Shown here piece after piece: positions 5,761 to 11,062 of a stretch of 64,000 nt of DNA. Every line of letters begins with the position of its first letter. The stretch's first letter is position 1. Position numbers and translations under genes: made by a program. Origin of the DNA: Streptomyces globisporus (lineage in GTDB: Bacteria > Actinomycetota > Actinomycetes > Streptomycetales > Streptomycetaceae). The DNA is taken from the NCBI GenBank assembly GCA_014649555.1, contig BMTG01000023.1, positions 1 through 64,000 of the forward strand, read 5' to 3'. A model generated the notes under the pieces. That model was not told the DNA's origin, did not search any database, and worked only from the letters and a program-made list of their open reading frames with translations.

Positions 5761-5979
5761 TCAGCCGGAGCAGGCCGTGCGCCCCGCCTCCTGCCAGGCG
5801 CAGACCGGGCAGAGCGTGGCCCCCTTCGTCGACTCCGGGTACTCGGTCGGCTCGCGGCACAGCACGCACTCGGCGTACGGAGGGCCTCCAGCGGCTCCGT
5901 ACGGCGGGGCGGTCGTGCTCGGCTCCGGGGAGTCGCAGTACGTGCCCTCGCCGTGCGGGTCGTCCGTTTCCCGGCTCAA
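5761..5979 (-). CDS. Small zinc-ribbon-like protein coupled to AIM24
   Basis: A 72-aa protein with two CxxC pairs: 'ECVLCREP' near residue 35 and 'TLCPVCAW' near residue 55, a likely zinc ribbon. The N-terminal half is Ser/Thr/Pro/Gly rich and disordered-looking. The start is inferred as TTG at 5979, overlapping the AIM24 stop codon as TTGA, a 4-bp overlap that suggests translational coupling. The reading frame then runs to a TGA at 5761-5763. Function is unknown. Being a partner or metal chaperone of the AIM24 protein is only an inference from the coupling. Confidence 0.65.
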   Translation of the reverse strand: MSRETDDPHGEGTYCDSPEPSTTAPPYGAAGGPPYAECVLCREPTEYPESTKGATLCPVCAWQEAGRTACSG

Positions 5980-6650
5980 TTGGCGGTCTTCTCGGGCCTG
6001 GCCTCGCTCGGGCGGACGATGACGAAGCCCTCGCCCTGGAGCATCAGCTGGACGGCCTCGCCGGAGCCGCCGCGGACCATCGAGCCGACGCTCTGGGAGC
6101 GGTTCAGGCTGGTCGTGAGCTGCTGGCTCCAGCCGACGACCCCGTCCGTGTCCACGTACACCGGCTGGGCGGCCGTCACGGGGATCACGATCGGGGTGCC
6201 CTCGCACATCAGGCCGAGCTTGCCGTATCCCGTGAAAACGCTGTTGAAGAGGCCGCCGCCGACCATTCCGGCGCCCTTCACCGTCTTGATCTCGTAGGAG
6301 AGGGTGGGGTCGAAGCAGAGGACGTTGCGGCCGTTGATGGTGATCGAGTCGCCCTGGTCCAGCTCCACGATGAAACAGTTCGCCGCCTCGTGCGCGAACC
6401 ATGCCTCGCCCTGGCCGCGGACGGCCATCAGCGCGAGGCCCTCGCCGGTGACGGCGCGCTTGAGCATGCCGCCGATACCCTGGCCCTTGCGCTCGAACTG
6501 GAGGTTGCCGCGGAAGGCGATCATCGAGCCCTGCCGGGCGTGCATCTCCCCGTTGACGGCGTACTTGATGGATTTCGCGTTCTGCAGGGTCATCCCCGGG
6601 GCGGTGGCCGGCTGGGCCATGTGCTCGCTGGAAAAGAGATCGCTCTTCAT
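5976..6650 (-). CDS. AIM24 family protein
   Basis: A 224-aa protein starting MKSDLFSSEHMAQPATAPG, with GAGGA nine bases before the ATG at 6650. It shows the repetitive beta-sheet pattern of AIM24/TIGR00266-like proteins: 'KYAVNGEMHARQGSMIAFRGNLQF', 'GLALMAVRGQGEAWFAHEAANCFIVELDQGDS', 'GGGLFNSVFTGYGKLGLMCEGTP'. The mitochondrial founder of the family shapes inner-membrane organisation; the bacterial function is not known. The C-terminal third 'VQLMLQGEGFVIVRPSEAR' is typical of actinobacterial members. It is the first gene of a two-gene unit with the zinc-ribbon protein and lies divergent from the PTH2 gene. Confidence 0.88.
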   Translation of the reverse strand: MKSDLFSSEHMAQPATAPGMTLQNAKSIKYAVNGEMHARQGSMIAFRGNLQFERKGQGIGGMLKRAVTGEGLALMAVRGQGEAWFAHEAANCFIVELDQGDSITINGRNVLCFDPTLSYEIKTVKGAGMVGGGLFNSVFTGYGKLGLMCEGTPIVIPVTAAQPVYVDTDGVVGWSQQLTTSLNRSQSVGSMVRGGSGEAVQLMLQGEGFVIVRPSEARPEKTAN

Positions 6651-6721
6651 GCGGAGCATCCTCACCCGGACCCGGTCGTTCCGCCAAGCAGGTGACCTCG
6701 TCCGCCTGGCAGACTGGGACG

Positions 6722-7650: not shown

Positions 7651-8400
7651 TTGTTGCGACGCATCAACGGCACGGCCCTCATCATCGCGGCACTGGTCGC
7701 CACACTCGGCGCGCTCGCGTTCCCCGTCTGGTCCTACGCGGACCGTTCGGGCACCGGCGAGGCGAATCTCAACGCCTCCAGCGTCGCCACCCAGTGGGGG
7801 CCGCTCTCCGCGACCGACCGGGACTTCCTGGTCAAGGTGCGGCTCGCCGGGCTGTGGGAGCTGCCCGCCGGGCAGCAGGCGATCGAGCGGGCGCCCAGCG
7901 AGGCGACGAAGGCCGCCGGGGACCACCTCGTCGTCGGGCACACGGACCTGGACCGGCGGGCCCGGGACGTCGCGGCGAAGCTCGGGGTGGAGCTGCCCAA
8001 CCAGCCCACCGCCCAGCAGCAGGAGTGGCTGCGGGAGCTGACGGCGGCGAGCGGTGACGCGTACGAGCGGAAGTTCGCCAACATCCTGCGCGCCGCCCAC
8101 GGCAAGGTCTTCGGCCTGATCGGCCAGGTCCGCCACACCACCCGGAACACGCTGATCCGGCAGCTGGCGAGCGATGCCAACCAGACCGTGCTGGACCACA
8201 TCACCATGCTGGAGGCGACCGGGTTCGTCGACTTCGACGCCCTGGCGCGCGAAGCGGTGAGCGGGTCGACGTCCAGTCCTTCCGGCCCGCCGATGCCCCG
8301 GGACGGCCAGGCCCCGCTGGCCCCGGTGCCGGTGACGCCGACCGGCGAGCAGTCCTTCACCTCGCGCCCGGTGCCGCCCACGATGATGCCGATGCCATAA
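7651..8400 (+). CDS. Secreted or membrane-anchored DUF4142 protein
   Basis: A 249-aa protein starting at TTG 7651 (LRRINGTALIIAALVATLGALAF), which gives a basic start and one hydrophobic segment over residues 7-28 with a possible cleavage near SYADRSG. The body is a helical DUF4142 domain (about 45-205): 'ATDRDFLVKVRLAGLWELPAGQQAIERAPSEATKAAGDHLVVGHTDLDRRARDVAAKLG'. DUF4142 is a ferritin-like four-helix domain of unknown function in exported proteins. The tail from 210 on is Pro/Ser-rich. It lies 122 bp upstream of the MNIO enzyme on the same strand; a shared operon is possible but not shown. Confidence 0.82.
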   Translation: MLRRINGTALIIAALVATLGALAFPVWSYADRSGTGEANLNASSVATQWGPLSATDRDFLVKVRLAGLWELPAGQQAIERAPSEATKAAGDHLVVGHTDLDRRARDVAAKLGVELPNQPTAQQQEWLRELTAASGDAYERKFANILRAAHGKVFGLIGQVRHTTRNTLIRQLASDANQTVLDHITMLEATGFVDFDALAREAVSGSTSSPSGPPMPRDGQAPLAPVPVTPTGEQSFTSRPVPPTMMPMP

Positions 8401-8522: not shown

Positions 8523-10004
8523 ATGGAACTGGGTATCGGTATCGGCTGGCGGCCGGAGATCGCGGCCGAGGTGGAATCGCTGGGCGGGATCGACTGGGTG
8601 GAGGCGGTCGCCGAGAACCTCTGCGCCGACCATCTCCCGGACTCGCTGGTGCGGCTGCGGGAGCGCGGGGTGACCGTCGTGCCGCACGGGGTGGCGCTCG
8701 GGCTCGGCGGCGCGGACCGCCCCGACCCCGACCGGCTCGCCGGTCTCGCGGCGCGCGCCGGACTGCTGGGGGCGCCCCTGGTGACCGAGCACATCGCGTT
8801 CGTACGGGCCGGGGGGCCGCTGACCGCGTCGCCGAGGCTGGAGGCGGGGCACCTGCTGCCGGTGCCCCGCACCTGGGACGCGCTGGACGTGCTGTGCGAG
8901 AACGTGCGGATCGCGCAGGACTCGCTGCCGGTGCCGCTCGCCCTGGAGAACATCGCCGCGCTGATCACCTGGCCGGACGAGGAGCTCACCGAGGGGCAGT
9001 TCCTGGCGGAGCTGGTCGAGCGGACCGGGGTGCGGCTGCTGATCGACGTGGCCAATCTGCACACCAATCACGTCAACCTCGGCCAGGACCCGGCGAAGGC
9101 GCTGGACGAGCTGCCGGTGGAGGCCATCGCGTACGTCCATGTGGCGGGCGGGGTCGAGAAGAACGGCGTCTGGCACGACACACACGCCCACCCTCTGTCC
9201 GAACCCGTCCTGGAGGTGCTGGCCGAGCTGCGCTCCCGGGTCGATCCGCCCGGCGTGCTGCTGGAGCGGGACGACGCCTTCCCGCCGGGCGCGGAGCTGG
9301 CGGGCGAACTCGACGCGATCCGGGCGACGCTGCGGAAGGCGGCACCCTCGGCGGGTCCGGGGCCGGACCGGGCGGCGCCTCGGAAGGCCGTCCCCTCGGC
9401 GGACCGGAGGAACGCTCTGGAGCAGGCGGCACCCTCGACGGGCCAGGGGCCGGACCGGGCGGCGGCGCGGAAGGCCGACCCTTCGGCGGACCGGGGGCCG
9501 GTCGCGAGCCCGGCCCCGAGGCCGGACCCGGCTCCCGCGTCCGACGGCAGCGCCGGCGCCGGGGCCCGTACGGACACATCCGCCCCCGTGCCCGCCGGCA
9601 CCCGCGACCGTACCGCCGTCGCGCAGACCGCCCTGCTCTCCGCCCTGGTCGCCGGAACGCCCGCCCCCGAAGGCTTCGACCACCGGCGGCTGCGGGTGCA
9701 GAGCCGGGCGCTGGCGGCCAAGCGCGCCGACGTCGTCGCCAAGGTGGCCCCCGAACTGCCGGAGATCCTCGGCGACGGCTACCGTGCCGCGTTCCTCGCG
9801 TACGCCGGGAGCCGCCCGATGTCCGGTGGCTACCGCCGGGACGCCCTGGACTTCGCGGAGCACGTGCTCATCGCGGGCGGTCCGGCCGATCCGGCGGCGC
9901 GGCGCCGGCTGACGTACTGGTGGCAGGACCGGTCGGGCGCCCGGCCCCCGCGCCGTACGACCCGTCTCGTCCGGGCGGCCCGTGCCGCCCTCGTGGGGAA
10001 GTGA
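8523..10004 (+). CDS. DUF692 / MNIO multinuclear iron oxidase with fused C-terminal domain
   Basis: A 493-aa protein. Residues 1-265 form the DUF692 TIM barrel. Candidate iron ligands are visible in order: H55 (VVPHG), E89-H90 (TEHIAF), E142-N143 (LENIA), D175 and H180/H183 ([14 protein letters not shown]), H206 (YVHVAGG), the 'DTHAH' motif at 219-223 and E248 (LLERDD). MNIO enzymes (MbnB, TglH and bufferin-type relatives) oxidatively modify cysteines of ribosomal peptides. Residues 270-360 are a linker of imperfect Arg-Lys-Ala-x-Pro-Ser repeats. Residues 361-493 form a separate helical domain that looks like the DUF2063 partner proteins (HvfC/BufC) which normally accompany these enzymes. The gene is five bases upstream of the Cys-rich TIGR04222 gene. 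Start ATG 8523. Confidence 0.9.
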
Positions 10005-10009
10005 CCGCC

Positions 10010-11062
10010 ATGAACACGCTCGCTCTGCTGGCGACCCTCGCGATCGTCGTCTCGTCGGTGCTGCTCGTCGCCAAGGCGGTGGCCGAGCGGTCCCGACGTC
10101 CCTCTCCGGGCCCCGGCGTCGCCCTGCACGACCTGTACGAGGTCGCCTTCCTGAACGGCGGTCCGGCCAGGGTCGTGGACACCGCCCTGACCGCCCTGCA
10201 CGCGGACGGCCGGCTGGCCGTCGGCGGACCCGGCATCGTCGCCGTACAGCGGGCACAGGCGAACGACCCGGTGGAACGTGCGGTGTTCCAGGAGCTGGCC
10301 GCCGCCCCGAACGGCGCCCTGCACGTCCTGCGGGAAGCGGTCATGCGGCACCCGGCGGTCCAGGAGGTGGGCGACGGGCTCGCGGCGCGCGGGCTGCTGG
10401 TGCCGCCCCACCGGCTCCGCCCGCTGCGGCGGTGGGGGCTGACCCAGGGGACCGTGTGCCTGATCGCCCTCCCGCTGAGCCTGCTGCTGACGTTCGTCCA
10501 GTTCGCCACGGACGACTCCCTGGACTTCTCGGTCCCGTTCATCGTGAAGATGCTGCCCGCGATCGTGATCGGCTCGTTCACCGGGCTGATCGTCGCCAAC
10601 ACCTCGGCGGGCCGCCTCACGGCGTCGGGGCGCCACGCCGCCCAGTCGTTCCGGGCCGCCTACGCCTACGTGGTGACCCCCGCCCATCTCGTCGCCACCC
10701 TGGGCCTTCGCGCCCTGCCGGATCCGGTGTTCCAGGCCCAGTTGATGGCCGCGGCACGGCTGAGCGCTCCGCGACGGCGGTCCTCCGGGCGCGTCGGCGG
10801 ATCCACGGCGACGGGTGTCACCGCCGTCGGCGTGGCGACGGTCTGGTGCGCCGCGTCCGGTCCCGGCGGCTCCAGTTGCGGGGGGTCGACCGGGGGCGGC
10901 TCCGGATCGAGCTGCGGAGGCGGCTCCGGGTGCTCCTCGGGGTCCGGGTGCGGAGGCGGCAGCGGGTCGAGCTGCGGCGGTGGCTCCAGTTGCGGCAGCT
11001 CCAGCGGCTCCAGCTGTGGGGGCGGAGGCGGCGGATCCAGCTGTGGGGGCGACGGCTCCTGA
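10010..11062 (+). CDS. TIGR04222 membrane protein with Gly/Ser/Cys-rich tail
   Basis: A 350-aa protein. A first membrane helix lies at residues 3-22. A cytoplasmic winged-helix-like part follows ('LHDLYEVAFLNGGPARVVDTAL', 'ALHADGRLAV', 'DPVERAVFQEL'), which is the TIGR04222 signature. Two further membrane helices lie at about 144-166 and 178-198. Residues 260-286 lead into a pure low-complexity tail, 287-350, of Gly, Ser and eight Cys (290, 302, 308, 314, 322, 328, 336, 345), mostly as SCGG or GCGG. ATG 10010 is preferred because GGGGAAG is about ten bases upstream; a GTG at 10001 overlaps the MNIO stop. Direct coupling to an MNIO enzyme makes the tail a strong candidate substrate; that step is inference. 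Confidence 0.85.
   Translation: MNTLALLATLAIVVSSVLLVAKAVAERSRRPSPGPGVALHDLYEVAFLNGGPARVVDTALTALHADGRLAVGGPGIVAVQRAQANDPVERAVFQELAAAPNGALHVLREAVMRHPAVQEVGDGLAARGLLVPPHRLRPLRRWGLTQGTVCLIALPLSLLLTFVQFATDDSLDFSVPFIVKMLPAIVIGSFTGLIVANTSAGRLTASGRHAAQSFRAAYAYVVTPAHLVATLGLRALPDPVFQAQLMAAARLSAPRRRSSGRVGGSTATGVTAVGVATVWCAASGPGGSSCGGSTGGGSGSSCGGGSGCSSGSGCGGGSGSSCGGGSSCGSSSGSSCGGGGGGSSCGGDGS

Follow-up and report, generated by a model that had tools for sequence, protein, structure and literature searches.

In a 64,000-nucleotide stretch of Streptomyces globisporus DNA (the window), a gene for an MNIO (DUF692) enzyme and a gene for a membrane protein with a Cys-rich tail (genes A and B) would together make up a two-gene protein-modification cassette. 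With some confidence we favor the reading that the MNIO, equipped with a built-in partner domain, oxidizes the tail cysteines of the membrane carrier, and so creates groups that bind metal on the cytosolic side of the membrane. We regard it as probable that the gene B tail is the MNIO substrate, because of the fold and conserved residues of the enzyme, its partner domain, the distribution of Cys tails among genomes, the even spacing of the cysteines, and the presence of similar tails on carriers that do not belong to TIGR04222.

Gene A (8523..10004, + strand) encodes a protein of 493 aa that, judged from its sequence and predicted structure, is an MNIO (DUF692) enzyme with predicted multi-iron oxidative activity. 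As originally predicted, it is a DUF692 protein with the expected iron-ligand motifs: PF05114 matches residues 4-270 with 249.5 bits (Pfam cut-off 25), marking a TIM-barrel-like catalytic domain (8532..9332, +), and H55, H90, E142, D175, N178, H206, D219, H221, E248 and D250 are invariant in 142/142 aligned MNIOs (142 of 143 sequences were used, one being incomplete). By comparison with MbnB and TglH, the metal ligands are likely to be among these ten residues. A single-sequence model (mean pLDDT 45) gave meaningless fold matches and was superseded by a prediction from a 61-row alignment (mean pLDDT 88.1, pTM 0.84), for which the best Foldseek match was TglH (8hci_B, E 1.8e-16), followed by 3bww and MbnB, indicating an MNIO fold. 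The NCBIfam profile for bufferin maturases, MNIO_BufB, gives 167.5 bits, under its cut-off of 310. Of 199 Streptomyces genomes, 187 have an MNIO match. SCO6045 is presumably this MNIO, and we have left the value published for it, a 3-fold change in a redox-sensor dataset (PMC4991794, available text), out of the argument.

The second domain of gene A, overlooked in the original prediction, is helical, spans residues about 360-470 (9600..9932, +) and is modeled with pLDDT blocks of 94-98. It is joined to the catalytic domain by a linker (9333..9599, +) that is mostly of low confidence (block mean pLDDT 46-58 over residues 281-350). No family in Pfam or NCBIfam corresponds to this domain, and a profile built on 91 fused Streptomyces copies detects stand-alone genes adjoining MNIOs in other genera. 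Among 80 named loci (the best 80 of 574 confirmed relatives and hence non-random, some sharing contigs with other fetched loci) a partner-like domain is present in 77, as a fusion in 21 and as a gene of its own in 56; two of the three loci in which it was not found are interrupted by a contig end. Within Streptomyces, 103 of the 105 fetched loci having an MNIO carry it, and both exceptions lie at contig ends.

A location beside an MNIO together with the lack of a DUF2063 signature defines a PME-type 2 protein, and the domain has both properties, as a fusion in gene A and as a separate gene in the 56 named loci. In Micromonospora matsumotoense the separate partner-like gene beside the MNIO encodes 158 aa from its ATG, the same length as the PME-type 2 example of this species given by Antoine et al. 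(PMC12452194, cited throughout from the available part of the text). These sequence features suggest that gene A joins an MNIO and a PME-type 2 partner in one protein. DUF2063 (PF09836), the PME-type 1 partner, has no match in the window genome, and only 1 of 197 genomes of the class matches, below the cut-off. Comparison of the domain with the DUF2063-type partner by hhalign was not significant (probability about 0.4-0.5 %, E 0.07-0.1), the register being similar by eye only, and sequence comparison with solved structures was likewise not significant (best E 1.1). A structure search with the whole gene A model, in which NGO1945 (3dee) and TglI were looked for, returned catalytic-domain matches only among the 50 matches listed. 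The non-significant sequence comparisons of the partner domain count against the cassette reading.

Gene B (10010..11062, + strand) encodes a 350-aa TIGR04222 membrane protein (175.6 bits, NCBIfam cut-off 43), the candidate substrate, which we designate type A. It lies five bases past the DUF692 gene, as had been reported, with the stop codon of gene A ending at 10004 and the ATG of gene B at 10010. Hydropathy predicts transmembrane segments at residues 3-21 (10016..10072, +), 149-167 (10454..10510, +) and 177-195 (10538..10594, +). The Gly/Ser/Cys tail, which runs from a VWC motif to the C terminus (10841..11059, +), contains nine cysteines. The description of the tail in the original prediction, all of whose numbers were correct wherever checked, is borne out: the composition of the final 64 residues is G31 S23 C8 T1 D1, the eight cysteines (290, 302, 308, 314, 322, 328, 336 and 345) are spaced 6-12 residues apart, and six of the eight are in an SCGG or GCGG context. 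Further cysteines are found at 150 and 280, the latter within the VWC motif where the tail begins. Of 46 Streptomyces A proteins, 44 retain this VWC cysteine, and 42-45 retain the cysteine in each of four tail columns. The tail lacks an EGKCG motif, and gene B has no Pfam match (no DUF2282 signature).

The cysteines are more evenly spaced than in shuffled tails. For 49 Streptomyces tails with at least five cysteines the mean minimum Cys-Cys gap was 5.61 versus 1.82 after shuffling, with 49/49 above their own shuffled mean and 40/49 at p <= 0.05; for 60 named-locus tails with at least four cysteines, a set overlapping in kind with the first, the values were 4.88 versus 2.02. Gaps of 1 or 2 are nil in both sets, and cysteines three apart are rare (7 gaps per set). 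Gly follows Cys in 255 of 373 cases in the Streptomyces tails and 313 of 392 in the named-locus tails. Such spacing is hard to square with either drift or CxxC metal sites. Tails from outside Streptomyces often end exactly at or near GCGG, as do 20 of the 60 named-locus tails at their very end, and it is possible that this terminal GCGG is a C-terminal recognition or processing signal.

That Cys tails should track the presence of the enzyme had been proposed, with Cys tails common in genomes lacking DUF692 as the contrary pattern. We surveyed a class-wide sample of 296 genomes, in which TIGR04222 matches occur in 100 (74 above the cut-off) and MNIOs in 66. Outside Streptomyces, at least three tail cysteines in Gly/Ser context were found in 26 of 28 TIGR04222 proteins adjoining an MNIO, in 4 of 12 for which the MNIO sits elsewhere in the genome, and in 0 of 13 from genomes without an MNIO; comparison of 26/28 with 0/13 gives a Fisher value of 6e-9, with kinship ignored. 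The tail is the likely MNIO target, and the contrary pattern, which we looked for, was not seen. The 53 proteins counted derive from 59 rows, the six removed being G079 (an MNIO fragment at a contig end), G037 (a tail that extends past the sequence fetched), G064, G183 and G209 (apparently incorrect reading frames in the tail) and an additional match of 40 bits in G242. In a plain count, four complete rows have at least three cysteines without an MNIO (G079, 4; G183, 5; G180, 3; G250, 3), and G180 and G250 fail the Gly/Ser-context rule.

Given that the tree yields few independent pairs (4 pairs, 3.0 same and 0.1 opposite, for an MNIO beside the gene; 3 pairs, 0.7 same and 0.0 opposite, for an MNIO anywhere in the genome), neither pair test is able to reach significance, which counts against the cassette reading. 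Within Streptomyces, 12 of the 199 genomes have no MNIO match. Six of these have a TIGR04222 match, five without tail cysteines; the sixth, G391, a 1,420-contig draft and the sole Streptomyces case of the contrary pattern, has three.

The tail is also found beyond TIGR04222, on proteins beside MNIOs that have no NCBIfam match at E 0.1 yet carry a similar Cys tail. Carriers with one predicted helix (83-119 aa) occur in the near-identical L220 and L222, the near-identical L170 and L178, L286, L288, and L224, the last from another family code; the records L286-L288 are named Frankia and Pseudofrankia. At L190:4574-4768 (+), immediately 5' of an MNIO and downstream of two TIGR04222 genes, lies a helix-less Cys-rich Gly/Ser peptide of 65 aa, and at L221:3851-5191 (-) a putative 447-aa ORF with no Pfam or NCBIfam family, adjoining a fused MNIO, terminates in the same Cys/Gly tail. 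A carrier with at least two context tail cysteines is present in 69 of the 80 named loci, and with at least three in 67. Six of the 11 carrier-less loci (L314, L316, L333, L340, L357 and L360) have a contig end near the MNIO; L319, L328, L335, L337 and L364 have no such explanation. One record, L299, named as a Phycisphaerae MAG, shows the order TIGR04222 (4 Cys), MNIO, partner, reflecting either inter-phylum transfer or contamination.

TIGR04222 proteins also occur apart from the enzyme. The window's own genome encodes a 205-aa paralogue (L003:1489-2106, G000:C6) with a Gly-rich tail lacking cysteine, no MNIO nearby and no strong membrane segment (best 19-residue hydropathy 1.06); that a paralogue without an adjoining MNIO has a Cys-less tail counts for the cassette reading. 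The TIGR04222 paralogue termed B has two well-kept cysteines near TM1 (62/67 and 58/67), and was rejected as a tail substrate, having no Cys tail and persisting in MNIO-free genomes.

The pairing of enzyme and tail is upheld as an association, but the case for a strict one-to-one relation is weakened, since 17 of 40 Streptomyces MNIO loci in a stepped sample, drawn at intervals from the MNIO matches listed, have no adjoining Cys-tail protein (20 have one, and 3 are cut or unclear). Among 94 scored loci, part of them hand-picked, 44 are tail-less. An MNIO tree of 105 rows (50 with a tail, including G407 and G374 assigned by hand, 44 without, and 11 set aside by hand) gathers 40 of the tail-free rows into a single 48-member clade (SH-aLRT 93, not starred), with the other tail-free rows scattered. 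In all 44 the ten MNIO residues are intact, within the 142-sequence alignment. L110, L117, L137, L144 and other Streptomyces loci combine an intact MNIO and fused partner domain with no adjoining Cys-tail protein.

DUF4142 was considered as a substitute substrate and rejected: it occurs in 24 of the 44 tail-free and 20 of the 50 tail-bearing loci (fetched stretches), and, as 20 of the 44 have neither a Cys tail nor DUF4142, it offers no general answer. A profile search for unlinked tails in 15 genomes proved insensitive, finding the G000 and G313 tails, missing the known G364 tail, and returning one weak match (G112, E 0.36). Neither paralogue B nor DUF4142 explains an intact MNIO without a tail. 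The MNIO probably has a further substrate. These tail-less loci count against the cassette reading, and of all the puzzles in this family they are probably the one with most to teach.

The neighborhood of the pair was compared across loci as well. Outside Streptomyces the commonest flanking families are housekeeping (PheT, ArgC/ArgJ, PEPCK and UppS), and no copper gene is present among the neighbor families listed (25 of 69, from 87 flanking proteins), which also counts against the cassette reading. Relatives of HemQ, HemG, DUF4142, peptidyl-tRNA hydrolase 2 and the alpha/beta hydrolase occur only in Streptomyces loci; the restriction of HemQ and HemG to this genus was treated as synteny, and a heme link was rejected because neither is found in the non-Streptomyces loci fetched. 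What stays constant across loci is the set of carrier, MNIO and partner domain. Two side observations concern the Streptomyces neighborhood: the DUF4142 proteins found near the MNIO (7651-8400 in the window, and relatives) have two kept C-terminal motif types, about TYxLPPAxxSPPP and DQSFTSRP, and an AIM24-family protein lies near the cassette (5979-6665, -; PF01987, 117.5 bits), with relatives in 26 Streptomyces genomes (fetched stretches).

Where the tail resides bears directly on its possible role. The original prediction placed the modified cysteines at the cell surface or membrane, and Antoine et al. (PMC12452194) give a model-based topology with the TIGR04222 tail outside, which counts against the cassette reading and would fit their prediction of a tail that is modified in the cytosol and ends outside, a membrane-tethered outer metal chelator like bufferin. 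The charge distribution instead points to a cytosolic tail. Hydropathy gives exactly three segments in 34 of 50 Streptomyces A proteins (six have four, seven two and three one) and in 9 of 21 non-Streptomyces TIGR04222 proteins, and mean K+R for TM1-2, the TM2-3 loop and the region after TM3 is 13.8, 0.6 and 7.1 in the 34 and 16.8, 0.7 and 7.9 in the nine. The one-helix carriers follow suit, all seven having 0-1 K/R before the helix and 4-8 within the 25 residues after it, and the TIGR04222 paralogue without a strong membrane segment is also difficult to reconcile with an outside tail. The fourth segment of the six Streptomyces proteins would flip the tail, and gene B itself has a weak one at residues 262-280. 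Given the positive-inside charge pattern, we consider a cytosolic tail, as predicted from charge and hydropathy and contrary to the published topology, to be likely, and the outer chelator unlikely. A cytosolic tail, if true, would require no shielding from export prior to modification.

The tail might also go unmodified, its thiols binding metal or acting in redox directly while the MNIO substrate is encoded elsewhere. The many Streptomyces in which MNIO and partner domain are intact but no Cys-tail protein adjoins them are consistent with this, but the link between Cys tails and MNIOs extends to other genera and to unrelated carriers, and the near lack of closely spaced cysteines is unlike CxxC metal sites, so that we judge it improbable. 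It is scarcely credible that the cysteines are a drift by-product in a low-complexity Gly/Ser tail and the gene pair plain synteny: homologues, and the paralogue in the window's own genome, do include Gly-rich tails without cysteine, but the spacing relative to shuffles, the conserved tail Cys columns, and an association that spans families and carriers all argue otherwise.

Under the favored reading of a cassette that modifies the gene B tail, the MNIO would bind the membrane carrier, aided by the fused partner domain on its flexible linker, and would oxidize the isolated cysteines of the Gly/Ser tail one by one. If bufferins and captophorins are a guide, the most likely product would be a group of the thiooxazole type, and on that analogy we consider its presence on the tail cysteines an even call. 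The carrier, with three predicted helices and a predicted cytosolic domain, would keep the tail, once modified, on the inner side of the membrane, where it would most likely bind a soft metal, copper or another; that the tail serves to bind metal is itself a tentative suggestion.

A broader and still more speculative proposal is that the tail is a transferable C-terminal Cys tag, placed on unrelated, mostly membrane-anchored actinomycete proteins and facing the cytosol, which the MNIO-partner unit turns into a brush of metal-binding heterocycles. If true, this would be a protein-modification system and not a RiPP pathway. Small exported peptides are the best-known targets of MNIO chemistry. 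Should the cassette reading hold, that chemistry would extend to tails of membrane proteins that stay in the cell, and in a group that is widespread, as the MNIO count in Streptomyces genomes (187/199) indicates; despite that spread, the tail protein is present in only about half of the sampled Streptomyces MNIO loci.

The pairing itself is not new: Antoine et al. proposed in 2025 that MNIOs modify the Cys tails of TIGR04222 proteins, so the idea of enzyme and tail advanced in the original prediction was already in print (PMC12452194). Apart from supplements, we found no other literature on MNIO with TIGR04222, although TIGR04222 is mentioned in a bacteriocin cluster (PMC5183585, available text). 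The published clusters involve the same two families, with Cys-rich Gly/Ser tails as the proposed targets, and include a peptidyl-tRNA hydrolase, MNIO, TIGR04222 type similar to the arrangement in the window; the hydrolase there is PF01195, whereas that of the window is PF01981 with the DUF4142 gene between. Many MNIO-TIGR04222 clusters were described as apparently lacking partner genes, in contrast to the window, where enzyme and partner-like domain form a single protein. That survey asked how the modification of TIGR04222 proteins comes about in clusters with no visible partner gene; a fused or adjacent partner domain bears on this question, and the two genes of the window are a system suited to testing it. 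Beyond the published account, as far as its available text goes, our analysis adds the fused partner, unrelated one-helix carriers, the spacing test, and a topology in which charge suggests a cytosolic tail.

Bufferins (Buf1 and Buf2) resemble the gene B product in having several cysteines that are modified by an MNIO and a proposed metal role, but are small Sec-exported proteins, for which a UV maximum near 305 nm is reported (PMC12452194), and gene A is below the bufferin maturase cut-off. The captophorin repeats (fontiphorin, oxazolin and gonophorin), which contain 5-thiooxazoles and bind copper, likewise combine an MNIO with a partner protein and have repeated isolated cysteines, often followed by Gly (EGKCG), but are small precursors with PME1/DUF2063 partners (PMC13097082, available text), whereas gene B encodes a membrane carrier and the window pair has no EGKCG, annotated signal peptide or DUF2063 match. 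MbnB and TglH share their catalytic fold with gene A. Their systems have separate partner proteins and small peptide substrates. In a RiPP the core is released from a leader; no leader/core boundary was identified in gene B, and the substrate would be the whole protein.
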